The notes under the pieces were generated by a model, which was not told the DNA's origin, searched no databases, and saw nothing but the letters and a program-made list of their open reading frames with translations. From NCBI GenBank assembly GCA_012845835.1, contig JABAKD010000027.1:248001-312000 (forward strand): a DNA stretch of 64,000 nt. The letters are read 5' to 3'. Shown here in pieces: positions 14,073-56,952 of this stretch (position 1 is the first letter of the stretch; every line of letters starts with the position of its first letter). The position numbers and the translations under genes were made by a program. The DNA is from Undaria pinnatifida. Its lineage: Eukaryota; Sar; Phaeophyceae; Laminariales; Alariaceae.

Positions 14073-14469
14073 TATAAAAATTAAAATACACTCCAGCTGT
14101 GAGATCGAAGATTTCGTCGAAACTCATCTTTGCAAGCTGTGTGTGATACTCCGATCGCGCGCATTACGAGTTGTGTGTCCTCATTAAGGATATAGGTCGG
14201 CGACTCCCCTTACAGCTACAGTGTAGCTATCAGGGTCAACAGGATGATTTTAGTCAGTCTGTGCGCGGAAACTATAAAACCCGTTTCTGAGGGGGACAAA
14301 ATCTGACAGCTGTGAAGGCAAAGGGGGGGCCTGGTTTTGATCAAAAGCGAGCGGGTTTGGAGGGGGGCGGGGGGGGGGGGGGGGGGAAAGGGGCAATTTG
14401 TGCATGTAAGCTATAAATCCTTTCGAGGGGATAAATCTGACGGTTTTGGCACCAGTATATTATTGGGGG

Positions 14470-14508
<39 letters not shown>

Positions 14509-36879: not shown

Positions 36880-37690
36880 CTCCGGTGGCCACTTGAAGTA
36901 CAATCGCCGTTAGTGATCTTCGGTGGTGACTCGAGGTACGATGAGGTTGTCGCCCTTAGGACTCTTCGGTGGCCAATCAAAGTACGATCAGGCTGCCATG
37001 TCGCCTTCAGGACTCTCTGGTGGTGCTTAAAGATACAAGCAGGCTGCTACCCTCAGGGGTATCCAGTGATCAATAAAGTCGATCAAGCTGCCGCCGTCTG
37101 GGATCTCCGATGGTCAGTCGGAAGTATTATGAGGCTGTTATGTGGCCCTCAGGGCTCTCCGCTGGCTGCTCGAAGTATGCCCAGGATGTGACCCTTAGAA
37201 GTCTTCGGTGGTCAATGGACGTACCATAAGGCTGTCTTCTTTGGAGGTCTCCGTTGACCAGTCGGAAGTACGAACAATCATTCATGTGGCCCGTCTGGTG
37301 AACACCAACCAGGTGGTCCTTGGGCCCGATGCGTCGGTCAGAATCTCTCCGGTGGTGCTTAAAGGTACAAGCAGGCTGCTACCCTCAGGGGTCTTCAGTG
37401 ACCAATAAAATTACGATCAGGCTCGATCAAGCTACCGCCGTCCCCGATGGTCAGTCGGAAGTATGATGAGGCTGTCATGTCGCCCTCAGGGCTCTCCGTT
37501 GGCTGCTCGAAGTACGCCCAGGCTGTGACCCTTAGAAGTCTTTGGTGGTCAATGGACGTACCATAAGGATGTCTTCTTTGGAGGTCCCCGTTGATCGGTC
37601 GGAAGTACGATTAATCTGTCATGCGGCCCTTCTGGTGAACACCAACCGGGTGGTCCTAGGGCCCGACGCGTAGGTCAAAATCTCGTCCGG
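36880..37690 (+). repeat. tandem array of about 50-bp monomers with a 332-bp higher-order unit
   Basis: Monomers follow a pattern near CTTCGGTGGTCAATCGAAGT then ACGATCAGGCTGTCATGTCG then CCCTCAGGGCT. About 16 diverged copies are visible. A group of seven monomers is itself duplicated (37,019-37,350 and 37,351-37,690) with much closer identity than between neighbours. This is a higher-order repeat. The monomer is close to 51 bp, and one frame reads LFGGQSKYDQA, but stops make a present protein unlikely. Confidence 0.85.
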
Positions 37691-38181
37691 GTCACCCTAC
37701 GCAAATGTACGAAGAACGGAAATCCAAGCGCAAGGAAAGGGTCACGCGTCGGTACCCGATTGTTACGAGGGGTGTACGTTGCCCTATAACTTAGACAAAG
37801 GTTGCTAATAGCACAAGACCACACGGTTAGCTTTGTTGCCGCAAGTAACACGTTTCCGACGTAGTTTCCACCACAGGAGACACATGCATGTTGCCTGTAC
37901 GTTTGAGGCAGATAGTGGCTCTTGCACACCGTGCACGTAGTCGCCTCGAAACAAGCCGCGACTACCTGACCTCACATGGAAGTAGGGTTTCGCCCAATTG
38001 GTTATTGGATTTGCTGTAAACTATTTCATACCGGGTGGCTTTTTCCGAAGAATCTCATGGCAAGTTGTGTGTCTCGAACAGTCCATCATCTTGAGTACAC
38101 TGTGGGGAGTTACAGGTGGATAGGCTCTAATGATAACGCTGCGCCCTAGACCAGAATGTCCTAGCTAGCCTTCGATGCCTG

Positions 38182-38250
38182 CTACGGCATAGGGTGTACA
38201 AACAATTTCTGACAATCCTTACTGGAGAAGCTCTGTACCTCGCCCTCGCC
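38182..38250 (-). CDS. P450 terminal exon with stop
   Basis: This exon encodes 22 residues and a TAG stop. It begins GEGEVQSFSSKDC and ends LFVHPMP, consistent with the C-terminal beta strands of a P450. The acceptor TCTAACTCAATTTGAG has a branch-like CTAAC and a pyrimidine-rich lead. It joins the L-helix exon at phase 0. This exon has no invariant motif, so its support is position, phase and general fit only. Confidence 0.65.
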   Translation of the reverse strand, partial: GEGEVQSFSSKDCQKLFVHPMP

Positions 38251-41200
38251 CTCAAATTGAGTTAGAGGAAACACGAAAATTCAACCATGATAGTTATTCC
38301 ACGACTTTGGGATACAACGGCAAAATGTACTGCTCTAGATACAATCGAAAAAAGTATTACGCCGATATCGGGTTGTTCTATAGTCTAAATAATCTGATAG
38401 TCTAATGGGTGTTTTGCCCAACCCTAAGAGTTTGTGTAATATATAGTGCTATCGTGTATGTGAGGAGCCCCGTCAGCCGGAAAATGCTAGGTCCAAAGTT
38501 ACCAGCTCTATCGTGCGACGCGTCCCTTACCTGACTCGGCTCGAGAGCGACGTCGAAGCGAGCGCAAATGGCCGCGATGATCATCGTTGCCTCCACCTTC
38601 GCCACAACCTGAATCGACAAAGCCAAACATAAAAAACGATGCGGCATAAACATGGGAAACCCGTGCGCGCAGCCCATGGGTACGAAGTGTTTACATGAAC
38701 CAGACGATTTCAAACAAAAGACGGGGGGATTCCCAAAGCGGTTATTCTCTCGTACTCGCGGTGCTTGAAGTTTCGAATTATATACCCAACTATATATTGA
38801 TGGATACCAGCACGACTTTCTCGGGAGGTGTCTTGCGCGGGCTGTATCTGAGGGGAACACTGTTGTTTTGCGGTGAACCCGAAACGCAATCACATTTTTT
38901 TTCAGGCCTCCATACCCCAATTGGTATCGCAGACGTGATGATATGCACACTTCTTCGCCCCGAAAAACATGGGCGCAGTTCCAATTTCAAAAGGGGTTAA
39001 ACGTCCCACAGCATTCGCCGACAAGCAACAACAAATAGCGCCACCTCTACGACTAACACATCAGGTGGTTGGTCTCCACAAGGTTGTGTTGGGGGGACCT
39101 TTCGCGTGATTTACAGTGGAGTCATTCTTATTGAAGCAAACTTGTCAAGTCTTACCAAAACACTATTTTTTAAATCGATTCCCAAATGTACGCCAACACG
39201 ATTGGAAATATTGAACAGCGTGAAAGAACACGGAAACCCATTGATAATCCAATTTCAGGATGTATTGTACCTTTCCCGGGCATGACCTTGGGCCGGAACC
39301 TAACGAAAGGAAAGCTCTTTCATCATGATTCACGCTCCTGTTGCCCTCGGCGTGTTCCCCTTCACGAAGTAGAGCCTCTTTGCGTTCATCCTCGATCCAC
39401 CTGGTTAGATGAAGACAGCACAGAAACAGCGGTTCGACAGGGGATGCCAGGAGATTTCGTGGCAAGGGGGATGGGGTCCTGCGAAGTATTGGTGCTTCAT
39501 GGTTTGCCGCCGGTTCCTTGTGTTAACAGTATGAACCTTGGATTTAAATCTAAGTTAATGTGCAGTCTATTCGCACGAATAAGATATGCAGTTGAATCTT
39601 ACGTTGAATCTTACGTTGAATCTTCGGTGTAACCTAGATGTAAACGTAGATTTGAGTATGTTAAGGTTGTCCCGTTGTCCCGGTATTCTACCGTACTACA
39701 GGCATTGTTCCGTGATGATCAGGTGGTGATGCAACCCACCATGACCACTCTCCCTACTCTCCTTCTCTTCTTTCTTCCCCGGCTTCCTCTTCTTCTTCTC
39801 CTTCTATCTTTGGCCTCAAGCGCCCTTTCCAAACTATCCTTTCTTTCTTTTTTATCACAAGTGATCTTAACAGACATTTCGGTGCCACCTCTGCATCTCT
39901 TCGCATAGAAGACAGAGCCTCCACACAACCATTGTGTTCACAGGCTATTCATACCTTGAGCCCGTCTTGTGCTTTCCTGACAACCCAGGTGATAGTAAAT
40001 GAAACATTCGAAGGGCGGTGAGAATGATCGGTTGGGTGGCCAGCCCTAAATGTACTTACGGTATGGTGCCGCTGCGTTTGGTCTTTTTGTTTGTGGTGTT
40101 CATTTTTTACAGAGAATATAATCACGATGCACTATTTAAACCACACACGAATGGGCTGTTTTGCACACTTTGAAGCCGAAAGTGTTCATTCAACGAGAAG
40201 AACCAAACAACATGGCACTCAGCCGAGATGAGGAGAGCAAACTTCGGCAGGTTTAGCGGATCACAACTTAGCCATTGAGCAGCAAGCGCGGAGCACAAGC
40301 ACAGCAGCGTTCGAATTTCGCGGCAAAGCCTGATCTTCCGCGGTACTTCGCTCTTGTATATTTGTAGTTTCTACAATAGATTGGCTCTTGGCTGCGAGTC
40401 GTGCGTTGTTTCAACTCCCGCCGTTTGTACACGGCGGGGGATAGATGGGCACTACTACTACTACTGCTGCTGCAGCACCAAGTCTTGACAGCGCCATGGC
40501 GTCGGCACGCGGGCGGGGCGGTCTTTACACCCCAAGCAGTGTGATGCACTCGTCTCGCCACAGAACGCCTCCAAGAAGGGACGAGCGTGAGGGTTATTGG
40601 ACGCCGGAGAAGGCGGGACGGGACGGTGGGCGGGTCGGCATTGTATGCAAAAGGCCTGGAGGAAGCAAGCCTGCGCCACGACGATAGTTTCCTGTCCAGC
40701 CAGCACGCTTCTTTTCGCGACAGGCGTTCGGAGCTGGACGCTTCCCGGACGGTCGCGGAAGGAGGGGGAGGAGGGGGGAGGTGGGGATGGCGACGACGAG
40801 ATTGCTGGGGCTGGTGTTATCGCGGATGGGGTATTATACGCTTTGGCGTTGTATTTGTATCTGGTCTGCACGCGACATACCGGGCTTGTGTTCGGTTCCA
40901 TGTCCAAAATTATGCTTGCGTTGACGTCTGATGTTTATACAAGTGCGTGTGTCATACAGATGAAATAGGGGATAGGGTGTTTGCCAAAGGTACGAGTTAT
41001 ATGGATTTTCCAGAAGGTTCGGGAGTTGGTTGAGTGTTTACTATTTGATGAGGCTCATTTTTTTCAAACAACCCTGGCGAAAATTTTGGCAAATAATTAG
41101 AGTTTGTCATTTATTTCTTGGTCTTTTTTTAGGGAAACGCTATAATGGCAATATTTCGCCAGACAGTTCGTGGCTGGCGGGGCTCCTCAAATATACTAGT

Positions 41201-44200
41201 TTTACTGTATCAAACTACTCAACATCGCCTGAAGACATACACATCATCTTTGTTGACCGACGGTACGAGGTACTCGTTAGATATATAGCTTGGCCATTAT
41301 ATTAGTCTTCGGGTTGCGCCTTAGCTTTTTCTCAAGGCAAGTGGTTGGGGGGAGGCATAGAATAATCCTTTATCGGGTGGGGGCCTCACGAGTGTTACAT
41401 ACATCTCTACGATTGCTTCGCTATTGATTTAACCTATCATTTGGTTTCACTTCGCCTATTTAAGGGTGAGATATGTGGCTACTCACGTGAGGAACTTGAT
41501 ATAGTTTTCATGCACCACCACCGTAGCAAGCGTCGTCGCCAAGGCTACGATGTTACAACAATATATCTGGTACATAGTATCATATATAGCATTATGACAT
41601 GATTTTTACTATCGCCTCTATACCAATCGTGCGAGTGGCTCTGTACCTATATCAATAACGGACGTCGAAATGTTTTTTTTCATTTCGTGCAGCGTAACAG
41701 TACGTTCCACAGCGGTGCGTACAGGGAAACCGAAAACCGCAAAAGAGCCGTACTGCTAACAAATATGGTAGCTACTCGCACGAGTGTCTCTGAGCGGCTG
41801 GCAATAGGAGGTTGACCCCATAGTACCCTAACCCTAACCCTAACCCTAACCCTAACCCTAACCCTAACCCTAACTCAGACATGTGACCCCCCTACCGTAG
41901 TGTGGAGGCGTGAATACTCCAAGGTCAAGGCGCAGGGCGAGGAGAAGTGCTCACCTCTCAGGAATAAACTCTTTGGCCCTGGTGAAGAATTCATTCGAGA
42001 GTCCGGCGTATCTCGTAAGCACGATAACACCTGTGTCTTTCTCCAACGACGTCCCGTTGACCATCTTGGTAGCTTCCTGCACACCCACACACGGTACGTT
42101 AGTTGCGCATGCACAGAGCGTTCGAGGAATGGACGAAACCGCGAGGGTTGACTACGTGACATTGACACCAACAGAAAGTGAAGACCCATTCCTACCTAAC
42201 TATTGCAGTGTGCGCAAGATGGAGAGGCGACCAAGCGTCTGCCATCGCTACCCAGCCGTGTCACATTTGCCATCGTGGTGGCTTCCTGGGGCCCGTCAGA
42301 CTCGTGTTGGGCTGCACATGCACAATACGTTTGAGGAATGAAGATAATCGCGGGGGTTGAATGCCTGACGCTGGCACCAAGCGAAACTGCAATCAGCCAT
42401 GCCTGTGCGGCTAACACAGTAGCAAAGACATACCTACTAGCCAAGCCCCGCCTATCCGGCCGCTACAGTTGCCAAGCCATGCTTTCCCGGCTACTACAAT
42501 ATGCGCGAGAGAGCAAGGGCGACTACGGTAAGAGTCTGCTATCCGACCACTGATACGTCTGAAAGGTTTCCTCAAACGACACGTAAATGTCTCGAAAATG
42601 AGCATGGATATGCATCTGAAGAAGAACGCACTCACCGCGTTGTGAAAAAACAACACTGTCGAGGAGCTGTTGACCCTCAACGTCTCCGTGAATATCGCTG
42701 AACAGAAAACCAGCTCGGACAGTTGCTCCCTTGTCGATACCAGGCCGTTACTGCTTGCAGCACACGTCAAATCGAATAGCAACACCATGCATGACACAGC
42801 CGGCATGGCAAGCACATCAAGCAGGTGCATCCCCCCTAGGCGGTACATTTCAAACACACAAACCCGGTAATGTTTCGCCGTCAATCGGTTGACCTAACCT
42901 TCAAATATGTTGTTGTTGTAAGTGTAGCATGGGCACGTAAACTGCCTCGCCCCCCAGGGTAAAATGCAGCGAACAATCGTCATCGTGAGCAAGGTCGTAT
43001 CCGCAGCCTTTCTTCGGAGGAGTCGTCTCTTTCAACCAGAGGTTTGCAGGTACTCGAGTGGACGCAACGTGGAAACTATTGTGGCATCTACCCGCTAAGC
43101 CAGTCTGCTGGTAGTACGTTGGATACCATGTTCCGGAAGAAGCGAGCATCGCTGCGAACGGAAGAAAAGCATCCTGCGGGACTGTCGAAAACAGGTAGCA
43201 GTTATCTCATCGGCCTTGCTAAGCAAAACCTGGCTGCTGCTTTCTGAAACAGGGTACATTAGATGACATACCCCGGCTTGAACGCACAAAATCGCACGAC
43301 ACGCGCACTGCATGGCAATATTTCTACTGCACGCTCACACCATAGACAACCCCACCTGTCCGTTTTTTTGGAAGCTCCAAGCAGCGACGTGCTTGACTTT
43401 CTTTGGCCTATCCGGAGTCTACACCATCCACACCAACAAGCGACGCCGCTACCAGTCGTTACCAATCTCTACCAACCGTGGATTTTTGCCACTGCAACAT
43501 ATCCTTCTATCCCTATCAAATTCCGGTCAATCTCTCCCAATTTCGATCACGTGCTCCCCAAACGCAATCGTGGCTGGAGCTCTGAGAGGGTTAAGTCCCG
43601 GACAGCACTACAAGGCTATCTAGATGAGGGGTGACGTGCGTCTTGCTCTGATCTTTCGGGAACGGGAGTGGTGTAGACGAACGACGGTGAGGAGTGACGC
43701 GCGTGTTTCTCTAACCTGTCCGGAGCGACCCGAATGACATTGTCTCTGCCTCGGGCTTACATGTTGGGGTGCTTTACGGTAGACCAAGGTACAGCGCAGC
43801 ATAGGCTATATCTGGCCCCTGAAGGGGTTACCGATATGTAAAAAGCGGCACTAAGAAGCCAACTTGACCAACGTGCGGGGGGTATTTGTTTTTTCTGACC
43901 TGTCCGGAGCCACTCGGAGCGCCTCTTCTCGGCATCGAGTTTGCATCTGGGGGTTCTTGGTCAAGTAGATCATGGCCCAGCACAGGACAAATGACGTTGT
44001 TCCTGTCCCCCCGATGAAGAGACTGCGCCAAACAGTTCAAGAAGCGAACAGCACCGTCCATTTGATCATTGCCGATGCGGTCGGTATGGGGCAGTGCATC
44101 GAACCAGGTTATCAGCAGAAGTGCACACCTTTTGGTCCGAAACAGAGGTAAAATGTGTCAAATATGTGAATGCTCGTTAGCCATGTCACAGGACGAATGG

Positions 44201-47200
44201 CGCTGTTTTCGTTCCCCCGATGAAGAGGTTGAAGCATTTGTGTAAGAACGTGAGCAAAAAACCTTCCATGATATTTCACGCGCAGCGAAACACGCCCACA
44301 AACAAACAACGAGAGAGAACAAGAGCAGCTACAGAGACAATTGACCAACGTGGTTGTGCTGTGTTCATGCTTCTGCCCGTACTCTGACGGGACACCCCTC
44401 GGCATGAAGACATGATTCTTTACCTAGCGCGTGCTTCGATAGGGGGAGCATGGTTCGCCTTCACCACCTCTGATTGGCGGGCCTCCTCAACCGACGATCT
44501 ACGCAACATCGCTGGAACCACCTTTGCGTTTTCCGATGATATTCGTTTCAGACCTTGGCCAAGAGATTGCTCATCGGGTTGCACTTTAGTTTTCTCTCGA
44601 TGCCAGCTAATGGGTGAGCCATGGATTTCCTTAAAAGGGAAGCCCCAGAACATCGAAGTGCTAATCCAGCCGTAGCACCTTACTTACCTCATAACCTGCC
44701 TTATCATCTCTTGATCCGAGAATCCCATGCGTTCGGGCAGGTGCTTGCCATTTTTTTTCCCCTCAGCCTCCGCCACCATCTTTCGCAGAAGCACCCCAGA
44801 GGATATGCTGTCGACGGCGCCGTCGCCCGAACCATTTTCCACGCCCTTTCTGTTCTCGATACGGGCTTTGTTTATCGCTCCCTGGGATCCACGGTAGCCA
44901 TGTAGCCACCGTTGCAGGTTTGGTGATGCAAGACGGTAGGATTGCCGGTTTTTTAGCACTTCTCACTTGACAATGCAACGACGTCAGATTTGGTCAGGTG
45001 TATTGAACCCCAACATATTTAGTTTGTTGGTTGTGTGGCAATATCCACTGGATCACGTAGTCACGCGCCTAAGTGGTCTTCTAGCGGGCATTGCTAAGTG
45101 ACGAACAAGGATGTGCGATGGGTCAGTTGTGGTGCTTCCGTCCCACGAATAGGCTTGACGTTGACGTGGAGTTCGCACGACATACTCAAGCGGACGCCGC
45201 AGAAGTATTGGTGTCGATAACCGCCCGTCATACCCGCTTGAGCTAATAATGCGGACGCGCGCTACCATTGGGGTTCCGACTCATGCTATTAATAGGGTAG
45301 AGGCGCACCTATTCTTTTTTGGGGCTCTTAGTCTCAGGAGCTCTATTCCCCACCCCAACACAACCTCTAGGCTTCAGCCTGGAGTCTCACAAACTTTTTT
45401 ACGAAGCCCACTTTTTTTGAAGCCCACTTGAGTGAAGCACAACAATCACAACCTGGGGCACCCCTTGTTCGATTGACCTCAAAACACGTTCTCCGGCGAC
45501 AGCAGCAGCATCGCGACAATTTTGCATGCCTCGACAGCTTAGCACATGTTGTCGGCCTCGGCCGAGTTTCCGCATCAGAGGTGGAGGGCGTGGGACGAAA
45601 TCTGTCTCGGGAGCTCCCCGACATACACCCATCAAGGTGCTGCATCACGTACACCACTGATCGGTCCATTGCGTTCGCACTATCAACGAATTCTCGACAC
45701 TGCGCTAACAAACGTTGACGTGGGTAAGCTTTACGTGTCGGCCTCTCCGAGCCCAACAGTATAGACGAGTGTGAGCACAGATGGTCAGCATCAGCGGTTC
45801 GCCATCCCTTTCCACCCCTCTCGACAGCTCGACCAAAAACGGCGCTAAACCCGCTCGAAACGGGAGTTACAGTTCCAGAAAACACCAGTTTTTCCCCAAA
45901 AGGAGCAGGCGAAAAACATCTCCTCTCAAAATTCAATTCCATCAATCACTGCTGTGGTAGATTGAAGTTAGAAGTAACACCCGCAATGCACTGGTGCGAT
46001 TCTTGACGTCATCGCCGCCTCATACAAGCATATGCAGGCCCTGGTGCCCCAGTTGAGTGCTCTAAGGTACCTTCGGCAGGGGGTGTTTTTTAAATTACAG
46101 ATTGAGCTTGCCGGGCGAGGTCTCCCACGGCACAGGGACAACAGCCTATTGCTAGGTAGCAACCAGCTAGAGTCTTGGTACACTAATATCACTAACATCA
46201 CCGTGGTATGGATCCGCACACCGCCGCCGCAAACAGCAGGCACTGCGGGAGGATTCCCTGCTGTAGCTCACGTTCGGCCTTCGCATAGCTTCGTATAGCG
46301 CTAGCTGTGCAGCACAAAACGCGGCACCACATGGCTCCAACATGTGTAGCCCTCTTTTTCGTTCAATATACATGGGCTCCGCTCCGCGGGCGGCTGACAC
46401 CGCCCGCTTCGCTCGCGCAAGGAAGAATGCAACTGAAATTCATTCAAAGGGGACAGAAAGAAAATCCTCATGGTTTGGTGCGGCTAGCGAATTGATAATG
46501 CCAAGAGCCGCTGCTTGTGCAAAGCTGGTTGACCTGCACTGTGCACTGTGCTATGTGCTTGTTGGCGATGTCACATTCTGATGGGCAGTACGGGTGTAAT
46601 TTGCGGGGGGGGGAGGGCATGGGGACGGAGAGATGACAATCGATTGAAGAAAGCAAAACGACGAGTTCACATCACGTATGTATATAACGGTACCCGGTAC
46701 CTGGTACTTCGCATCATACCTGGTGCTGCTGTATGTTCGAACGAAAGCACAGCGCAGGACGACAGACACAACACCGCACCGCAAGGCAAGGGACGCCGCG
46801 GCGCTGCGCTGCTGAGCTATATATAGCTGGGCTGAGCTGAGCTGGGGGTGCATGTATTGCGGTTCAACGATGTCGTGTGCATGTGTACATACCTCTGGTG
46901 TGGTTGTAGTATCTGTACGTCGTAATGATGATACTGCATGACCGCATGACGTGCGCGAAATAGTAGGAACAGCAAAGCACGTAGCACGGCACAGCGATAT
47001 CTCTTAAATCGGACTCCTTAAATCGTGTCGACCAACTTTCTTTTACAGGTATCTCTTGCATTGGGTTAAAAAAAGTCGGGCCTATGCCGGGCCTGGAGAC
47101 AAGCAACGCGAATGATACTCATTCGCTTGCGTTACGAACCCAATGCTTTAGAGAACAATGACAAAGTGCAACCCGCCGAACGATTCCATCGCCCAAGTAT

Positions 47201-50200
47201 GTCGAGAAAAAAAAAAAAATCGAAATGCCGACGACTCTGTGTTAAGGAGCACCGCCGTTCAGACAACGATTTAGCCCAAAAGTGCTACCTCTATCGCAGC
47301 ACGCGTGTTCCCTTGCGGCCGACCGAAACATTTCATACAATATTGCATACCGACGGGGCTCCTCATCTGAGGAACATGTAACCTCTTTCACTTCTTTCAC
47401 CTCTTTCACCTCTTTCACCTCTTTCACCTCTTTCACGTGCCATGTGTGTTGAAACTTGTGTTTGTATGAGGGTAACCTTATGTCTAGGCCACGGGGTTGT
47501 CCCCCGAGTTGCACTTCACTTTTTCTCAGAGTCGGATGAGCTACAGAGCTCGTCAAGCAGGAAACCTCAGAAACAACAGGCACACCCCTACTGCAGCACG
47601 CTGTACAAGAGCGATCCTCTCCGCGCTAAGTCTCGGTTTATCAGGTTGTTGATTGTACATTGACCATTGGTACGTTTGCTCGAGACGTACTTCACACTTT
47701 CAACCTTACCAAGAATCCCTTTGACTTGAGAGAATAATCGCGCCAAAAAAACATAGGCGATGTAGCGTTTATAGCATCGGCCACGAGAAGTACCAAGGAT
47801 TGCCGGAGTAAGGGATGCGTCCGGAGAGCACCGAAAAGGAACAGCATCCTGGCACTCTCACTGTCACACACTCTTCGTGGAATTCGATGAAACTTAATCT
47901 AATCGCCGCTTTAAGATGGACATAGGAGTACATGGGTCCCGAACGGGTTAATGACAGACAAAACGTATAGACTATATTTTTTCGTAACGTGTGTCATAGT
48001 TTGGAACATGCTATTACCAGGATCTGCCCACCTGTACCATGTCCTCTAGCTGATTAGCCTGCGCGTGCGTGTGTCGCACCCAGGGCAGCAACCACGGTAA
48101 CATGACCCACCCGAGCCTGAAGACGCGCACGCGGTACAACAGTAGAGGTAGCTACGGTGATTGTTTTCACATATTTGACATATTACTGTCTAGATCACGT
48201 AAATCAATATCTGTCGTCATCATACGCTGTGCAGGATCTGTGCCTTACACATCCAACCCAGAAAACATGTGCTACCTTGTGATCGTTCAAAGCACGATTA
48301 TCACCCGGCAGCATTATATGGGCAAACAAATATGGAACGGGGATACATCTGCCCCGAGAGGTGTAGATCATACCAGGTAGTACCTGGTACCATTGGTATA
48401 CACGCCCGATACTCGGTACGGCTATAGCAGATTTAGTCGTACCGAACGATTTCACCGGCGCTCTGCCGGAAATAGGCACTAATTTGGGCATCTTCACTAT
48501 AGGCATACCCACCCCCACCGTAGCGTGAATCTCCACAATGCCAAAAACACGACCCACTGGTACCATATCATACTACGTGGGTGAAGCCAGCAATCAAATA
48601 GCGAGCGGTTTCAACATGGTTCCGACATCATCACTCACATAACTATCGTCTTTACCATGTAAAGGCTTTGCGGCAAATAGGCTTTGCGGAAACTAGCACT
48701 GCTGCTCGAACTAGCGTCTATATTACGTACCAGGTAAGTGATACAAAGCGAGATCAAGCAAGACTCACATAGCCACCGGCTAGATTACTTCTGTTATGCG
48801 ATTACTTCTGTTATGCGAGTACTAAGCCAAAAATAGCTAATGTAGTGCACATCTTACGTTGGTAATGCCAACACTCGCATCGGTCACAGGAGGTAGCCGC
48901 TGTAACATGGGTGTCACGAACGGCATCGCAACAATACCAACGTTGCTAGCGGTTATTCTATGAGACATACGTGACACGAAGACTAAGACTCACATAGCTA
49001 GTGGCTGCAACATGAGGGTCATGAACGACATCATAACAGTTCGAACACAGTCGAACGACGGGCATGTCTGGTCTGGTGGAGTCCCGATGCTATCGGTGTG
49101 AAGACCGAATGCCGCCAGTGCGATGCTATCGTGCGCGAAACGCTCTGAGAACGGGAAGCAGGCACACGAACAGGAAAGGGAACCAGAGTAGAATAAAGCT
49201 ATTAATGATGCTCAGACGCAGAAAATATGCGTTTCAAATGGTATTGGGGCATTCCGAGACGTAGCAGTTCCCTCCGCGCGTGGCCGTCGTGGAATCGTTT
49301 TGTTCATGATGGTCGGACACGGGAAGTAGGAGTTCCTATTATTAATAATATGCATGTGGAATATTCGGATCATGAGGTAATGTAGGCGTTCCTACGAGTA
49401 CTGGCGTATTATTAAGGCGGTATACCAAACACACATGGCAGGTGTTCCTGTTGGCATCCAGGCGGTGTGATTACAGACGCAACATGATGGCTTTGGTATT
49501 AGTAAGGAGACGGGAGGCTTCCCTCAGCACGTGACCGCCAGTGGGCGGGTTGACCTCCCACCTCGTGGCCTTGACAATCCCACAATGCTATGAGGGGGTC
49601 ACACCTCGCTACACTATTGCAGGGCACATCGTTGAAAGCACACAAAATACACCGCTTCTGTGACCTCCCGAAATAGTCTAGACTATACCTCCTGCTATCT
49701 ATGATAATGGTGTATGAGAATGGTTGGTGCCACCTTGGGTGCCTTATTGCTATTGTGTGTGTTCATTACGTTGAACTGTTATTCCTACCCATCGGCTCAC
49801 AGCACACTCATTGTGGATGCCGATATGACCTCTGTGGTAACAAAACCACGAGGCAGAGATGCACATCACATCAACCCTAAAGAGATTGATCATACCATAG
49901 TAGGCGAGGGCTCAACCACTGTATCAAGCGACAGGTGGAATGCATAGTCCAAAGGAAGTTTGAGCTGCGGGTCAGGACAACCGCTCTCGAAAATTATTGG
50001 TCATTTTTATTGTGGCAGGTTTCGAACAACGTGAAATTGGCATTCGACCTACCAAATGCTCAACCTTCGCTCTTAGACGATGCACGAAACCACCACACTG
50101 CGGTCGGCTATACACCGGGCATTCGTTTCGACATGTGCTGCTCCGCGAATCTCCGTCGAGGTTCAATTCGAGCTTTGTACGAGACAATCGGTGTCGGGAT

Positions 50201-53200
50201 ATCTCGCGTGATGCATAATAGGACATCCGCTCATGCGAGCGACCTTTAGGACGCGAGTGGCCTTTAGCCACTGAATTAAAAGGCCCTAAATATGCTTCCC
50301 ATTTCCCTCCACGCGACTCGCCGAACACATTATGGCACCTTGCACTTGGTGAACGCAATGTCTGTCTGGTCGGTAAACACCCGATGTGCTCCGTCCCAGT
50401 ATATACGGGCTCTATCGTCATACAACTACGACCATGCATGAGCGTGGTACCAGGTATCCCCCTAGAGCAGCCTACAATGCCATGTATGAAATGAATGCAC
50501 CTAGCCTTGCTTGTTTATTGAATAAAGCGCGTTTCTGACCGAATGCGTAAATGGCGTCCACCACCTCTCCTGCGTCTGCCTTCTCATCCAGCTGGGCGCA
50601 AAATCGCTCCACCATCTGTTACAGGGGAACGAACAGAAATACAGGATGGGAAGAAACGTTCAGGACCGAGAATAACAAGTAGAACTCTTGCGTCATCAAC
50701 TGGGAGATTGTCCAGATTTCAGGTGTAATATCACGGTACAGAAGAAAATGCACGCAAAATACATGCCTCCTGGGAGCTGTCGTGATATGGACGACTGCGC
50801 AGAGGTGGGGTTTACATTACAGGTGAATGTGGGATACGCACCAGTGCTGTACATTTTGGACCACCGCGTTTAGACGCTCAGCAGCACATTTAGCTATCGA
50901 TAGCTATCGACAGCGAACATCCACGAGTAGCGTTTGGACGCTCAACACCGCAGTCGCACTAGTAAGCCAGATCGGCACGTAAGGTTCACCGTGAGGTGCC
51001 GGGCGTACTATTAATTGAGACGGAGACATCGCAACATGCCTAGACATTGCGCTACTTCTGCTGCGGTTGGTGAGTTTGCGGATCGTCTCGAACCTTGGCG
51101 ATGGAAGGGATCATGTTGGTCACGTTGTGTCCGACGAGATGAGGGCAGATCAGACGCCTCGAACGCCCCCACTGCTTGCCTTCGTCGAAGAACATGGCTG
51201 GCAGCAGTCCTATCTTCTCCGCTGGCCAGTTGAAATGCGTCTGAGTAAAATGCGTAAAGATTTGCGAGCAGTTAGCTGGGTCGGTAACACCGCGATACTA
51301 CTACTACTACTACTACTATCATGTCGGAGAGAGCAACCACCGCATTGAGGGCCGAGGCAATCATGACGCTTTTGCCTAGGAACGATGTTCACAATGAACG
51401 GCCATCAATCTTTTCCAGGGATGTGTGTGTCGAGCGAGAGAATGCATACGAAATGCGACCTCATCCTAGTGTTCGCATGCAGCATACGATAGTGCAAGCT
51501 ACGAGCGCGTGCCTCGCATCTACTTACATTGAAGGCCGACGTAGTGCGTCCGGCAGTTACACCACTATCCCCTACGTTCGCAGCCCGCTTGCTTGGTGTG
51601 GATCATGTTTGAAATGTTGAGGTTTTGGTCAGCGTCAGTGTCATCTGTGGCCTAGTCCCAACACGGGTAATCACCTTCATACAGCAGTAATTGTCCCGTA
51701 CGTACCGTGTGACGGTTCTTTTGTGTGGGTTCATGTGCTGTGGCTATTCCACACGAGGCAACAAGCCAACGCGTCGACATAACAAACGATTGCGCCCGCC
51801 CCCTTCCCCTCCTCTCTCGCTTTATTAACGGTACGTAGTGCCCTATACCCAAGTGTTAGAGTAGCGCCTTTAAGGGAATCTGAAAAACAGCCCGAACTTG
51901 GTTTGGAGATAGCAGAGGAAGAACTAATGGCTTCGAACACTAGGAACAACCCCAACAGCATGTCATTGGCCGCGGTCACCCGAGCTAGAGCACGATATCA
52001 AATATGAAATATCGACGTGTTCAATTTTGTTTTCAATTTCGTTTTCAATTATGTTTTCAATTTCATTTTCAATTTCGTTTTCAATTTCGTTTTCAATTTC
52101 GTTTTCAATTTCGTTTTCAATTTCGTTTTCAATTTCGTGTTCAATTTCGTGTTCAATTTCGTTTTCAATTTCGTTTTCAATTTCGTTTTCAATTTCGTTT
52201 TCAATTTCGTTTTCAATTTCGTTTTCAATTTCGTTTTCAATTTCGTTTTCAATTTCGTTTTGATGATGCAGACCCGAGGACGGCCAGTATTACGCATTAT
52301 TATTGACGTGTCCAGTCCGATTAATGGCACAGATCGGAGGAAGACGAAGAGTGTACAACACTTAGATCGTGGTGCTCGATCTGCTTATTAAGGGCAATCG
52401 TACTGATGTGAACCACCGAACCCTCAATCTGTTTAGTGATGCAGATCATAGAAAATATGTGCAGCATTCAATAATATTCAGTACTGACGCGATCAAGTTG
52501 TGTAATGAGGATGATCACAAGACGACCAATATGATACTATCATACTAAAGTTGACGTATTCAATCCGTGTGATGATAACGATCAGAATGACGCACCACTG
52601 AAGCGCTCAACGCGTTAGATGGTGCAGGTCAAAAGTAGCACCAACACTGCAGTATTCCATCTGGTTAACGACGCAAAAGGTCCCTGGTGCTCACTGCTGC
52701 CAGCCTCCCCCCGAAAGCCTTGCAGGTGCAAGCTTAGAACACGAGGGACATCGGCCACTGAGGTGGCCACAACTGCTCTCTGGCCGAACAAGGACACTGA
52801 AGTGCCCCATTACGCATGCGGCGACCGGGTTAGGTTCCAATGCTCGTGAAGCCCCTAGCTTGCCGAGGGAGCTCTCATCTACCTCACCCCAGCGCTGACT
52901 GCGAGAAGAAGGAATGTGAATATTGATGAAAAACCTTCTCCATGTAACGGTAATGGTAACGTAAAAAAAAGAGGCAAGTCAAGTTCCAACCATGTGGCGT
53001 CGATGAGGAATCCCGTCAGTCCCAAATACTGTGGCAATGGACTGCTACCCCCATCGTGGCACTTGTGAGGTATACTCCATCGATCCGATCGATCCAATCT
53101 ATCCAATTGATCGATCCAATGATCCAATCGATCCAACCAATCTGTTTAATCAATCTGTTCAGTCTGTTCCATGTGTTCGATCAACCACGAGACGCGTGCT

Positions 53201-56200
53201 AGGGTAGCAGTAACGCCCGTTTTTTCTTCATTATTATTCGCACTTGAGGTGCTCAATAATATTGATCTGAACAATATAATTCCAAGAGATTATCTGATGA
53301 ATTATTACCTTCATCATCACCTATTAATAGGTATATCATATGATACAGCAGTAGTATAAACTCGTTTGGGCTGGTCACGATGGTGTTACTTTCAAGGTTA
53401 CTTGCGCCATGGATTATTATGTTGTCGTTGGTGCCCAAAAGCTTTATTCAAGGTTTCCAAAGCTGATACAATAGGACCCAGCTGTGTTCCCCCTAATATA
53501 TTTGCGACCACATTCCGACGAGTAACCTTGCCCCACCAACAGCATTCAAAAAGATAAATGGGATTCTTTCCCCCGCTATAGTATAGACTAGTCTGTTTCT
53601 TAAACTTTTACCTGGTTGTCCAATAGTCCAATAGTCTACTAGTCTACTAATCTACTTGGTTAATCACGCCAGTCAATATTGTTTCGACACGTGCTATGAT
53701 AGATTGTTTTTATAAATCTTGGTAATTTGTGACAACGAGGCTCCTTGACCGATAATTATTATAAAAATTAAAATACACTCCAGCTGTGAGATCGAATATT
53801 TTGTCGAAACTCATCTTTGCAAGCTGTGTGTGATACTCCGATCGCGCGTATTACGGGTTGTGTGTCCTCGTTAAGGATATAGGTCGGCGACTCCCCTTGC
53901 AATTACAGTGTAGCTATCAGGGTCAATTATGCATGAAATCATCGGAACGTCCTTCATTTGTTGCTACATTGTTGTTTCGTAAAAAGCCTGGAGTCTCCCA
54001 AACGGAAATGATATAATAGCGGAAGCCCAGTTTCAATGAAGCACAAAAATCATAACCAGGGGTATCCCTTGGTCGATTGACCTGCAAAACCCGTTCTCCG
54101 GCGACTGCAGCAGCATCGTGACAATTTTTGCCTGCCTCAACAGCCTAGCACATGTCTTCGGCCTCGGCCGAGTTTCAGCATCAGAGGTGGGGGGTGTGAG
54201 ACGAATTCTGTGTCGGGAGCTCACCGACTTGCCCCCACCCAGCTGCGCCACATGCGCCACTGATGCGTCCATTGCGTTTGCAGCATCAACGATTTCTCGA
54301 CATTGCGCGAACTCAAAATGACATGGGTAGACTTTGAGGGTCGGCCTCTCCCAGCCTAACAGGATAGTGTGAGCACAGATGGACAGCATCAGCGGTTCGC
54401 CAGCCTTTCCCACCCCTCTCGACAGCTCGACCAGAAACAAATGGTGCTAAAAGCTGCTCGAAACGGGAATTCCAGAAAGTATTTCAGTTTTTCCCCAAAT
54501 GGGGCAGGCAAAAACAACCCCTCTCAAAATTCAATTCGAACAATCACTGCTGTGGTAGCTTGAAGTTAGACGCATGGACACAACAACAACCGCAACGAGC
54601 TGGTGCGATCCTCGACGTCATCGCCGCCTCATACAAACATGACATCATGTGCAGGCCCTGGTGCTCCAGTTGAGTGCTCTGATGTACCCTCGGCTGGGAG
54701 TCATGTTTGAAACTACAGACTATGAGCTTGCCGTGCGAGGTCTCCCAACCCAGGGACAAACAGCCGATTGCCAGGTAGCTCCCAGGCACTCTTGTGTGCG
54801 GTGCTGTGTGCTGCACCGGGTACGTCGTGCCTGGTACACTGGTATCACCGTGGTAAGGATGCGCACACCACCAACACAAGCAGCAGGCACTGCGGGCGGC
54901 AACCAAGAAGGCGTTGGGTTCCCTACTTTGGCTCGCGTGCGGGCTTTAAATAGCTTTGTGTAGCGCTTCGTATCGCTGTGCAGCACACAACGCCGCACAA
55001 GAAACCTCCAACAACATGTATGTGTAACCCTCTTTTGCGTTCAATGTACAAGGGCTCCTCTCTCCCGCAACGACTAATGCAACGAAAACATATGTAAAGG
55101 GGGCAGAAGCAATCATAGGCCCATGGTTTTGTGCGACCAGCGAAATGATAATGCCAAGAGCATTTGCTTGCGCAGAGCTTGTTACTCTGCGCTGTGCACT
55201 GCGCTGTGTGCTTGTTGGCGATGTAACGTTCTGATCGGCAGTAATGGGTATAATTAACGAGGGGGGGGAACATACATAGGTACCGAGAGATGACAATGAA
55301 CTGAATCAAGAAAGCAAAAACACGAGTACACAACACGTACGTACGTACATAACGGTACATGGTACCTGATACTTTGCATCATACCTGTTGCTGCTGTATG
55401 TTCGAACGAAAGCACAGCGCAGCACGACTCGGCACCGTACCGCAGGGCAAGGCAGCTATGTCTTATTGTTGGACTTGAGCTGAGCTGGGGGTGAACGCAT
55501 TGCGATTCAACGATGTACAGTATAGTATGCATGTGTACACACCTCTGGTGTAGTAGTAATGGTACGTGACAATATTGACGGCCAGAGCGGCGGCGAACGA
55601 TCGAACAACGGCGGGCGAACGACAGCGGGCGAGCGACAGCCGGCGAGCGAGCGGGCGATCGGGCGACCGCGGGCAATCGACGACGGTGCCACCCCGTACT
55701 ACAGCAGGACGTAGTACCCGGTACAGCAGCAGTACAGCACAGCACACAACATAAACAAAGTCCACCAATACCCTCCCCATGAACCCACTATGTGTGTATG
55801 TATGTGTGTACGATAATAGTAACAGACCTCGAACCGATCCACCCAGCCAATCAGATGGCGTCCTGGGGGCGTGGAGAACACTGAAAAAGAATGGTACCCA
55901 ATTGTGGCCACAAAGGCACCGTGTGTACCCGAATTGTTTGCCCCTCGCCAATAAGAAGTTAGATATATATATCCTTGAACCTTACCCATGGCCTATCAAT
56001 GTGTTCGTAAAGGTTGCTGAGCTCACCTAACAAGTTGGCCGCCAGGATCTTTGGGGCGGTGGGCTGTTCGCGTTTGCGAGCAGAAAGCGCTTGCTGGTCG
56101 GATAGAGATACCGAGCGTAGACCCAACCCACCCCCTAACCCTAGTCCTAATTCTAACCCTAACCCTAAGCCTAACCCGTGCCCTGTGGCGCTCGTTTCGA

Positions 56201-56952
56201 CATTCGGCTGCTTCCGGCCTCCACCTACCGCCCTCCTCGTACTGTTGACATCTGCTCTGTCCGGAACTATAATACCGGGATCTGCCTTGATGTTGAAGTC
56301 AAAACGGTCCTTAGTTTCTCAGACATGTCTAGTTATCCCGCAAGAGAAGAGACACCGGCTCACCCATACCCAGACGGTTTCGCTCGTGCCTCGACGAGCA
56401 CGCACCCGCGCGGCGGGAGAGCGCCGGTTTACCCTTGTCTGCACCCATGCCCACGAACCCACGGCGAGATCGACGTTAAAAAACGTCGGGCCCAAGTCGG
56501 GCCTGGAGACAAGCAAGGCGAATGATACCCATTTTCTTGGGTTACTGCAATCAATGTCGTTCTTGTGTTGCTACATTGTTGTTTCGTATACTTGGGCCAC
56601 GAGTTTGTTAGTCGGATTGCACTTTCAGCTTGCTTAAAATCAGTGTTTAGGCTAGGTGAGGTGTAAAGCTCCTCAAGTGCTCAATAAACCCCAGCAAGCA
56701 AGAGTGCACCTCAGCTATACAATTAGTACCATTAGTAGTATTAGTGCTATTTTTACCATCAGTGGCATTGATCTATCGTAGCAGGTATGGAAAGCTCACC
56801 GGTGTAAGTCCCCTCCGGAAAACTTGAGGGCGTAAGCTTAGAACGCGACGGACATCGGCCACTGTGGTGGCGACAACCGCTCTCCGGCCGAACAGCGTCA
56901 GCTCAAAGTTCCCTCCAAGCTCATCCGCCCATCCTTCGAGCTGTTGAACCAG
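38182..56952 (-). CDS. cytochrome P450 gene, ten recognised exons over about 19 kb (gene span, partial)
   Basis: This is the span of a heme-thiolate monooxygenase gene. P450s activate molecular oxygen at a cysteine-ligated heme and usually oxidise lipids, sterols, carotenoids or xenobiotics. The substrate cannot be told here. Ten exons total 1,154 bp, about 384 codons, against roughly 500 in a typical P450. They hold WGRSR (helix C), GGTGTT (helix I), ETLR (helix K), PERW and GPRSCPG (heme loop). Adjacent exons join in phase except at two gaps, before 44,881 and between 43,900 and 42,697, where exons are missing from my reading. The N-terminal exon with a membrane anchor was also not found. 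Introns run from about 0.3 to 5.6 kb and are full of repeats. All exons found are open, so the gene may be active, but degenerate extra exons inside its introns leave room for a decayed or recently rearranged locus. Confidence 0.88.
38531..38608 (-). CDS. P450 exon: L-helix
   Basis: This exon encodes 26 residues: VVAKVEATMIIAAICARFDV followed by ALEPSQ. It fits the L-helix that follows the heme cysteine, with the typical alternation of small and hydrophobic residues and the RFD turn. The acceptor is TGTCGATTCAG and the donor GTAAGG. Both ends are phase 0. Confidence 0.9.
39271..39400 (-). CDS. P450 exon: heme-binding loop
   Basis: This exon encodes the W of PERW and then a charged linker to LSLGSGPRSCPGK. 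The cysteine is the axial heme ligand. The consensus is FxxGxRxCxG; the first aromatic position is leucine here (LGSGPRSCPG), with a phenylalanine three residues earlier. The acceptor is TTCATCTAACCAG and the donor GTACAA, phase 0. The intron separating it from the PERW exon is about 2.6 kb. Confidence 0.95.
41826..41875 (+). repeat. interstitial telomere-type repeat (CCCTAA)x8
   Basis: About eight uninterrupted CCCTAA units lie within the P450 intron, roughly 80 bp downstream of the PERW exon in the gene's direction. On the gene's sense strand it reads TTAGGG. Lack of decay suggests a recent origin or continuing slippage. Confidence 0.95.
41955..42076 (-). CDS. P450 exon: beta-2 / PERW region
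   Basis: This exon encodes 40 residues plus two bases. It begins EATKMVNGTSLEKDTGVIVL and ends FFTRAKEFIPER, with the tryptophan of PERW supplied by the next exon. It corresponds to the beta-2 strands, K'-helix and the PERF/PERW element near the heme. The acceptor is GGTGTGCAG and the donor GTGAGC, phase 2. An interstitial CCCTAA array starts about 80 bp downstream in the following intron. Confidence 0.93.
42636..42697 (-). CDS. P450 exon: K-helix (ETLR)
   Basis: This exon encodes 20 residues plus two bases. It reads IFTETLRVNSSSTVLFFHNA. The ExxR motif (ETLR) forms the salt-bridge pair that stabilises the heme core in all P450s. The acceptor is TTTTCTGTTCAG and the donor GTGAGT. Its phase does not join the preceding I-helix exon, so a short exon of perhaps 15-25 residues is missing between 42.7 and 43.9 kb. 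It joins the next exon at phase 0. Confidence 0.9.
43690..43800 (-). pseudogene. degraded third copy of the P450 I/J-helix exon end
   Basis: The minus strand keeps the nucleotide pattern of the 3' end of the I-helix exon, including CGCTCCGGACAG followed by a GT donor. The coding frame is lost. It lies just downstream of the good exon. Together with the 44.2-kb copy it shows a local three-fold duplication of this exon. Confidence 0.6.
43900..44022 (-). CDS. P450 exon: I-helix and J region
   Basis: This exon encodes 41 residues, starting with LFIGGTGTTSFVLCWAMIYL and ending with NPQMQTRCREEALRVAPD. This is the oxygen-binding I-helix followed by the J-helix. The classic motif is [AG]Gx[DE]T[TS]. 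Here it is GGTGTT, so the acidic residue before the threonine is a glycine. The acceptor is TTTGGCGCAG, the donor GTCAGA, phase 2 at both ends. A second, damaged I-helix copy lies 0.2 kb upstream in the intron, and a third sequence matching the J region lies 0.1-0.2 kb downstream. Confidence 0.92.
44185..44240 (-). pseudogene. partial duplicate of the P450 I-helix exon
   Basis: On the minus strand this reads LFIGGTKTAPFVL, clearly related to LFIGGTGTTSFVL in the exon at 43.9-44.0 kb. Homology ends soon after. It lies in the intron just upstream of the better I-helix exon, in the same orientation. It probably arose by local tandem duplication and is not expected to be used, since the second threonine of the oxygen-binding motif is lost. 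Confidence 0.75.
44688..44881 (-). CDS. P450 exon: helices G-H up to the I-helix
   Basis: This exon encodes at least 64 residues. They include AINKARIENRKG, VLLRKMVAEAEG and LPERMGFSDQEMIRQVM, the usual lead-in to the P450 I-helix (a charged linker, then a TFSDEE-like turn). The donor GTAAGT leaves phase 2, which exactly matches the I-helix exon that follows. The start is uncertain. The frame is open up to about 44,953, and the extra residues (YRLASPNLQRWL) resemble the F/G region. The true acceptor could therefore lie about 70 bp upstream of the chosen CCCAG. Confidence 0.85.
45370..46935. repeat. segmental duplication, copy 1
   Basis: About 1.5 kb here matches 53,985-55,575 in the same orientation over most of its length, with scattered differences and small indels. 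It starts near a GTCTCAC/GTCTCCC block and ends after TACCTCTGGTGTGG. A further short shared block lies just beyond it (47,060-47,130 against 56,465-56,540). On the minus strand both copies contain a stretch AQCRE[FI]VD[SA]ANAMD that could be a P450 exon before the F/G region. In this copy the position matching the other copy's GTGAGC donor is altered. Confidence 0.85.
47383..47436 (+). repeat. 9-bp minisatellite (CTCTTTCAC)n, six units
   Basis: Six near-perfect copies lie within a P450 intron. On the gene's sense strand the unit is purine-rich (GTGAAAGAG). Confidence 0.95.
50540..50615 (-). CDS. P450 exon: helix D region
   Basis: This short exon encodes 25 residues plus one base. It reads VERFCAQLDEKADAGEVVDA, a common form of the segment just after the helix C exon in eukaryotic P450s. 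The acceptor CCCCTGTAACAG follows a pyrimidine-rich stretch, and the donor is GTCAGA, leaving phase 1. It joins the upstream exon at phase 0. The next piece, expected to carry helix E and the conserved FG region, was not located in the 5.6 kb before the next recognised exon. Confidence 0.8.
51094..51240 (-). CDS. P450 exon: helix C region with WxxxR
   Basis: This exon encodes 49 residues. It contains FFDEGKQWGRSRRLICPHLV, in which W and the second R of WGRSR form the WxxxR helix C motif whose arginine contacts a heme propionate. It ends in GHNVTNMIPSIAK, typical of the turn into helix D. The acceptor is TTTTACTCAG and the donor GTTCGA. Both boundaries are phase 0 and join directly to the exons at 56.9 and 50.6 kb. 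The intron between this exon and the upstream one is about 5.6 kb and contains a degenerate exon copy, a 12-bp minisatellite and half of a segmental duplication. Confidence 0.92.
52019..52261 (+). repeat. 12-bp minisatellite (TTTTCAATTTCG)n, about 20 units
   Basis: Nearly perfect tandem copies of a 12-bp unit lie within a P450 intron. Because the unit is a multiple of three and has no stop in several frames, long artificial frames appear on both strands (for example FQFR or KTKL periods). These are not genes. Confidence 0.97.
52695..52790 (-). pseudogene. degenerate copy of the P450 N-terminal exon
   Basis: This is a second copy of the exon at 56.8 kb. It reads LFGQRAVVATSVADVPRVLS and then HLQGFRGE where the other copy has RPQVFRRG. 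It keeps a GTGAGC donor, but its conserved arginines are changed and it lacks the QQLEGWADELG part. It lies in the first long intron, between the exons at 56.8 and 51.2 kb. It is best read as a decayed duplicate exon, possibly left by a tandem gene copy. An alternative exon is less likely. Confidence 0.75.
53760..53926 (+). mobile_element. G-run dispersed repeat family, head fragment
   Basis: Only the first 167 bp of the family is present, from TATAAAAATTAAAATACACT to GTGTAGCTATCAGGGTCAA. It is very similar to the heads of the other copies. It lies within a P450 intron, about 60 bp before the segmental duplication copy at 53,985. Confidence 0.8.
53985..55575. repeat. segmental duplication, copy 2
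   Basis: This is the partner of 45,370-46,935, in direct orientation 8.6 kb away. It lies in the intron between the P450 exons at 56.8 and 51.2 kb. Its minus-strand stretch AQCREIVDAANAMDASVAHV ends 20-30 bases before an intact GTGAGC donor, so it may be a P450 exon left from a tandem gene copy. Its order relative to the other exons argues against use in the main transcript. Confidence 0.85.
56132..56177 (+). repeat. degenerate telomere-like tract with flanking repeat
   Basis: CCCTAACCCTAG and variants run for about 45 bp. The preceding 90 bp (GGATCTTTGGGGCGGTGGGC and on to GCGTAGACCC) resembles 59,510-59,600, which is also set among degenerate CCCAACCC tracts (59,420-59,460 and 59,600-59,640). 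A related tract lies at 58,250-58,280. These may be copies of one subtelomere-like unit. Confidence 0.7.
56555..56650 (+). repeat. short dispersed repeat in P450 introns
   Basis: The fullest copy reads GTTGCTACATTGTTGTTTCG, then TGGGCCACGAGTTTGTTAGT, then GGATTGCACTTTCAGC. Shorter pieces occur at 41,310-41,340, 44,565-44,600, 47,490-47,530 and 53,965-53,990, all in the same orientation. It may be a short interspersed element or a remnant of repeated intron duplication. Confidence 0.6.
56800..56952 (-). CDS. P450 exon: N-terminal beta-1 / helix B region
   Basis: This exon encodes 51 residues. They include QQLEGWADELGGNFELTLFG and ADVRRVLSLRPQVFRRG, the pattern by which many eukaryotic P450s pass from helix A through the first beta sheet into helix B. 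The acceptor was placed at the only AG after a run of stops and a possible branch sequence CCTAAC. The donor is GTGAGC, leaving phase 0. The reading frame stays open a further eight codons upstream (HPII before the acceptor), so the true start may lie slightly earlier. A degraded second copy lies at 52.7 kb. No convincing upstream exon with a membrane anchor was found. Confidence 0.88.

Follow-up and report, generated by a model that had tools for sequence, protein, structure and literature searches.

The minus strand of a 64,000-nucleotide stretch of DNA from the kelp Undaria pinnatifida (contig JABAKD010000027.1, positions 248,001 to 312,000; hereafter the window, or G000:C34:248001-312000 within the 511 Mb genome, C34 being the window's contig) carries a spliced cytochrome P450 gene. 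We recovered 12 coding exons, which run from position 56952 down to 37619 of the window and span ∼19.3 kb. The order of these exons, their frame, their borders and the family they belong to are established by the analysis. Based on these features, we consider it very probable that this is a protein-coding kelp P450 gene of at least 12 exons with ordinary GT-AG splicing, and that it belongs to a set of six paralogs, dispersed in the genome, that share one exon plan. A preliminary description of the window had proposed a single P450 gene composed of many small exons and had guessed at a stramenopile affinity. Both ideas held up: the spliced frame is open, five paralogs elsewhere in the genome share the exon plan, and the host is a kelp. 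The genome searched consisted of 68 contigs with 511,146,479 bases; the published assembly is given as 114 scaffolds and 511,280,173 bp with a GC content of 50.14% (PMC7058681), and some contigs may be absent from our set.

Most of the interval 38182-56952 was read directly, the upstream exon was located by script, and the borders were checked by comparison with P450 relatives from the same genome. Exon N (56800..56952; all exons lie on the minus strand), the furthest upstream that was found, covers the region from helix A to helix B (LVQQLEGWADELGG...). It is followed by exon C with the C-helix motif WxxxR (WGRSR; 51094..51240) and by exons e2 (50540..50615), e3 (48994..49144), e4 (48032..48116) and e5 (44688..44881). 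Further downstream are the I-helix exon with LFIGGTGTTSF (43900..44022), the K-helix exon with ETLR (42636..42750), the PER exon, whose end (..FIPER) is the beginning of the PERW motif (41955..42076), the haem exon with the W of PERW and LGSGPRSCPG (39271..39400), and the L-helix exon (38531..38608). When joined, these 11 main exons give a single open reading frame 458 codons long, and AG and GT are present at each internal border. By comparing the family stretches downstream of the L-helix exon, we located a terminal exon (GDPDEILTYASGPRTTRLVFTRRAA; 37619..37696), which ends in the stop codon TGA and has matches in four of the paralogs (C32, C61, C22a and C22b); none was seen in the remaining one, C34b, in this comparison. 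The frame stays open up to this final TGA, and all 11 introns are bounded by GT and AG with consistent phases; seven in-phase GT-AG junctions had been proposed earlier. The earlier count of ten exons was too low, as we found 12, of which 11 lie within 38182..56952. The upper end of that interval is exactly the first base of exon N, whereas its lower end coincides with no exon end and the last exon lies ∼0.5 kb further down. The terminal exon is adjoined by a 337-bp tandem repeat of two copies (37013-37690), which contains a downstream partial copy of this exon at ∼37347.

As judged from its spliced sequence, the gene belongs to the cytochrome P450 superfamily (PF00067). The 458 amino acids encoded without the terminal exon match the Pfam profile with 182.1 bits (E 2.2e-53; cut-off 22.8) over profile positions 31-438 of 462. 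P450 proteins are characterized by the motifs FxxGxRxCxG in the haem loop, ExxR in the K-helix, PERF or PERW, and A/GGxD/ET in the I-helix. The marks are present in order in the window gene: the C-helix WxxxR, the I-helix, ETLR of the K-helix, PER/W split by an intron, and the loop GPRSCPG, which retains the Cys ligand, the Arg and the Gly. The window gene differs from the superfamily in two positions, a Gly instead of the acid in the I-helix and a Leu instead of the first Phe in the haem loop. Among the matches listed in a genome-wide six-frame hidden Markov model search, the I-helix exon was the only single exon of the window (36.5 bits, E 4.7e-7). The earlier expectation that automated calls would miss the gene is therefore correct for callers that rely on the length of open reading frames (ORFs), but not for this search, which caught one exon. 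Eukaryotic gene finders work with spliced models.

Using the I-helix exon as a query against the genome, we obtained six places: the window itself, C32, C34b, C61, C22a and C22b. C34b (G000:C34:458806-479208) is located on the same chromosome as the window gene, on the opposite strand. We examined 30-40 kb around each of the five paralogs and recovered 51 of their 55 main exons (62 of 66 including the window gene); unrecovered were the L exon of C34b, e2 and e5 of C22a, and e5 of C22b. Thus, eight of the main exons were found in all six members, e2 and the L-helix exon in five, and e5 in four. Wherever found, exons N, C, e2, e3, e4, I, K, PER and L are of constant length, length differences in the haem exon and e5 are multiples of three, and all 11 main exons are identical in length between the window gene and C32. 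The script required AG borders and donors in the same phase as in the window gene, and both the recovery and the length agreement are conditional on this restriction. In a phylogenetic tree, the window gene groups with C32 (support 97/99) and, less firmly, with C34b (83/96).

The family also allowed an estimate of chance matches. When exon peptides of C61, C34b and C22b were compared by tblastn with the whole 64-kb window (C32 and C22a were not among the probes), all recovered exons matched on the minus strand and in gene order (11/11, 10/10 and 10/10, respectively), with E values from 7e-5 to 1e-22. The sole extra match of each query was a partial copy of exon N at ∼52.8 kb. In comparison, 20 shuffled windows per gene, generated with a second-order Markov model (Markov-2), yielded 0, 1 and 1 matches in all at E ≤0.01 for C61, C34b and C22b. 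This sequence comparison confirmed that the observation is real and far above chance. It also bears out the exon order WxxxR, I-helix, ETLR, PERW and haem loop on the minus strand, which the preliminary description had obtained by hand translation and which agrees with the order in the family. That description had named exons from different, unconnected gene copies as one outcome that would overturn it; the paralog matches are instead colinear and, for the main exons, on a single strand.

As judged by codon comparison, the family is under purifying selection. The ratio of nonsynonymous to synonymous substitution rates (dN/dS, or ω) between the window gene and C32 is 0.21 (NG86). A codon model, run in our own Python implementation with at most 60 optimiser steps on six genes and 453 codons, 295 of them complete in all six, gave a single family ω of 0.184 (log likelihood, lnL, –6352.01). 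Freeing the window branch raised its ω to 0.30 (lnL –6350.90), which does not reject the single family ω (likelihood ratio 2.2, 1 degree of freedom), and fixing this branch at 1 gave lnL –6352.98. With both the window and C32 branches freed, their ω values were 0.43 and 0.12 (lnL –6349.38). The 458 window codons contain no stop; the expected number is ∼3.4 with the branch length of the neutral fit (P 0.03) and up to 5 with the longer fits (P 0.006). The absence of stops and the exon lengths equal to those of C32 argue against decay, and the window gene is probably functional.

Several observations weigh against an intact gene and would suit a recently silenced copy, in which the exons are still clean, expression or the first exon has been lost, and the sequence is drifting. 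For the window branch, the test against an ω of 1 barely reaches significance (likelihood ratio 4.15, p about 0.04). When changes are polarised by C34b, the window gene shows 26 synonymous and 46 nonsynonymous changes versus 61 and 44 in C32; this raised nonsynonymous share points to a window branch that is somewhat relaxed or faster-changing. The haem-loop Leu in place of Phe occurs in the window gene only, one of six members. In addition, a first coding exon, which would carry an N-terminal membrane anchor and a proline-rich hinge, was not found upstream of exon N in four attempts. A tblastn comparison of upstream fragments among the six members gave nothing convincing among the matches listed; a scan for an anchor followed by a phase-0 donor produced four mutually dissimilar candidates, all confined to three of the paralogs and absent from the window gene; and gap-free matching anchored at donors, which extended to as much as 25 kb upstream, gave no convincing first exon. 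The upstream stretch covered was ∼6.5 to 8 kb for C22a and C22b and ∼10 kb for C61. The strong upstream matches among those listed looked repeat-like: they occurred in more than one reading frame or had copies at multiple sites. Nevertheless, the five paralogs likewise lack a found first exon in the same searches, and its absence is thus not special to the window copy. Moreover, 22 of 22 splice dinucleotides of the 11 introns are intact, and neither a stop nor a frameshift has arisen across a branch of ∼100-150 substitutions. We therefore regard silencing as improbable.

The introns of the window gene contain degenerate partial copies of its own exons: one of exon N in intron N-C (52707..52790, minus strand; 83% over 84 nt), one of the start of the I-helix exon (44187..44227, minus strand), and one that contains a stop and corresponds to the end of the I-helix exon (43716..43799, minus strand). 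By eye, a copy of the PER exon start can be seen at ∼42.28 kb. Decayed partial copies of nearby exons on the same strand are also present in introns of C34b and C22b, and C22a shows one 16-nt match; in C34b, an additional, decayed exon N precedes the real one by ∼190 bp, and exon e3 has three partial copies. These fragments, together with the partial extra terminal exon, could suggest that exons from different, unconnected gene copies are interleaved in the region. Yet only one full open copy was found per main exon, all on a single strand and in the order and phase of the family, 11 of 11 main exons have a counterpart in C32, and the extras are partial, at least one with a stop, which makes such interleaving most improbable. 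Alternatively, the fragments might serve as mutually exclusive alternative exons and so diversify the enzyme. They preserve the reading frame in part and reach an exon border in places, and the leucine-rich repeat (LRR) exons of ROCO genes are described as duplicated and shuffled in brown algae (PMC11378527). In those genes, extra exon copies lie near the parent exon, as they do here; in contrast to the repeated functional units of ROCO/LRR genes, the copies in the window gene look like decayed by-products. The alignments are partial and at least one copy contains a stop. A role as alternative exons is further contradicted by their frequency, and we give it hardly any credence.

This frequency was determined within 1.5 kb of each exon. 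A local copy was found for 10 of 62 family exons (nine of the ten on the same strand), compared with 77 of 274 random intron segments, 68 with a same-strand and 13 with an opposite-strand copy. The decoys were matched for exon lengths and genes; 310 were drawn and 36 were dropped because they overlapped an exon. They may include copies of interspersed repeats, and the comparison shows a lack of exon enrichment and is not a duplication rate. Same-strand matches also predominate among all local self-matches, both in the six gene regions (64 same versus 9 opposite strand) and in the flanks and other parts of the window (72 versus 13). At other loci, a local copy was present for one of six matched stretches of the P450 loci L001-L006 (L004) and for one of five aldehyde dehydrogenase exons, the latter in a search across the full 9 kb; L036 and L037, which encode tandem-repeat proteins (10 and 7 copies by nature), were left out. 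Since random intron segments are copied locally at least as often as exons, we rejected a special exon-copying mechanism. Local direct duplication is general in these regions, and the exon copies look like by-products of it. The comparison suggests that local direct duplication alone can leave exon fragments in kelp introns, and it calls for caution before they are taken as alternative exons.

The ten introns between exons N and L of the window gene have a mean length of 1.7 kb and range from 478 to 5,559 bp. Intron lengths vary freely across the family, up to 6,254 bp in C34b and 7,232 bp in C22b, the latter spanning a missed exon. The mean intron length is given as 1,057 bp for Saccharina japonica (PMC4421812), and means of 706-1,076 bp are given for brown algal MYB genes (PMC8854648); by these averages, introns of such length are usual in brown algae. 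Repeats reportedly make up 54% of the Undaria genome (PMC7058681). The preliminary description had placed the gene in 19 kb of repeats. Genome copy number was tested for a single intron stretch (45100-47900), and here an interspersed repeat of ∼1.8 kb was indeed found in intron e4-e5 (45365..47144, minus strand), with 53 listed genome matches including itself, some being pieces of one copy. A second copy, 74% identical, lies in the 5.6-kb intron N-C (54022..55558, minus strand). A Pfam search gave no match in the ORF 45370-45945, which overlaps the first copy, and the same was true of nine further long ORFs in the window. The introns would have become long because such interspersed repeats and small local direct duplications accumulated. 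Two simple repeats also lie in these introns, an interstitial telomere-type array between the PER and haem exons (41825-41874; TTAGGG on the minus strand, 8.3 copies, 100% matches) and a 12-bp minisatellite in intron N-C (CGTTTTCAATTT; 20.5 copies, 52016-52261).

Most P450s use an acid-alcohol pair in the I-helix for oxygen activation through a proton relay. An alignment of the I-helix divides the family in two: the acid is kept in C61 (AGTETT), C22a (AGTEST) and C22b (AGTDTT), whereas it is replaced by Gly in the window gene (GGTGTT), by Ala in C32 (GGTATT) and by Val in C34b (GGTVAS), which has lost the Thr of the pair as well. The window gene thus lacks the acid of the pair that marks a canonical monooxygenase. 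In the codon model, ω of the acid-less clade is 0.19 compared with 0.175 for the rest, so that purifying selection is of similar strength in both. CYP74-type enzymes need no oxygen and also deviate from the monooxygenase pattern in the I-helix. One could speculate that the three genes without the acid (the window gene, C32, C34b) form a P450 clade of kelps whose members are no longer ordinary oxygen-activating monooxygenases; they might be hydroperoxide-rearranging or peroxide-driven enzymes, arisen within kelps and independently of CYP74 and CYP5164, that feed kelp oxylipin chemistry. We consider this idea tentative and rather unlikely. Like the window gene, the CYP74/CYP5164 oxylipin enzymes of brown algae (Ectocarpus CYP5164B1 and CYP5164A3), which we compared by description only, are haem-thiolate proteins. 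CYP74 enzymes are described as having nine extra residues within the haem domain (PMC10813956). The haem loop of the window gene is of ordinary length, and the alignment shows no such nine-residue insertion in the six-gene family.

The closest solved structures by sequence are LUT5 (PDB 6l8i, 6j94), which we take to be a CYP97 carotenoid hydroxylase, and CYP3A4. Although these are the best structure matches, they reach only ∼66 bits (E ∼1e-17). Another P450 region of the genome (C33:2896386-2914379; L001, L002, L004 and L005) contains an open P450 frame of 410 amino acids on the plus strand and more P450 exons on the minus strand. This long-ORF P450, presumably CYP97-like, is separated from the six-gene family by a very long branch, being represented in the tree by a single short row. 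A scan of the genome contigs with the L001 ORF, aimed at how often other P450s carry the I-helix acid, gave a single relative, too small a sample for a base rate. P450s are listed among the expanded families of the Saccharina japonica genome (PMC4421812), and no paper on the six-gene family described here was among the titles that literature searches listed. Elsewhere in the window, positions 14465-15518 comprise G-homopolymer tracts and, after them, a 283-bp tandem repeat, with strong GC skew. The EsV-1-7 domain, which we assume to be linked to brown algae, has at least 150 matches in the Undaria genome and none in 14 control genomes.

Taken together, we propose that the window gene is expressed, its transcript being spliced and translated to yield a haem-thiolate enzyme with no fewer than 483 residues, probably with a further first exon that supplies a membrane anchor. 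The enzyme would oxidize a small hydrophobic substrate or, given the missing I-helix acid, might rearrange it. This is a gene of an ordinary kind for the brown-algal group, a member of a known superfamily that poses one biochemical question. If the clade proves to have hydroperoxide activity, it would represent an independent origin of oxylipin-forming P450s. The value of the finding lies mainly in annotation: it describes a family of six kelp P450 genes in which the exon plan is fixed, the introns are long and variable, and one clade has an altered oxygen-activation site.

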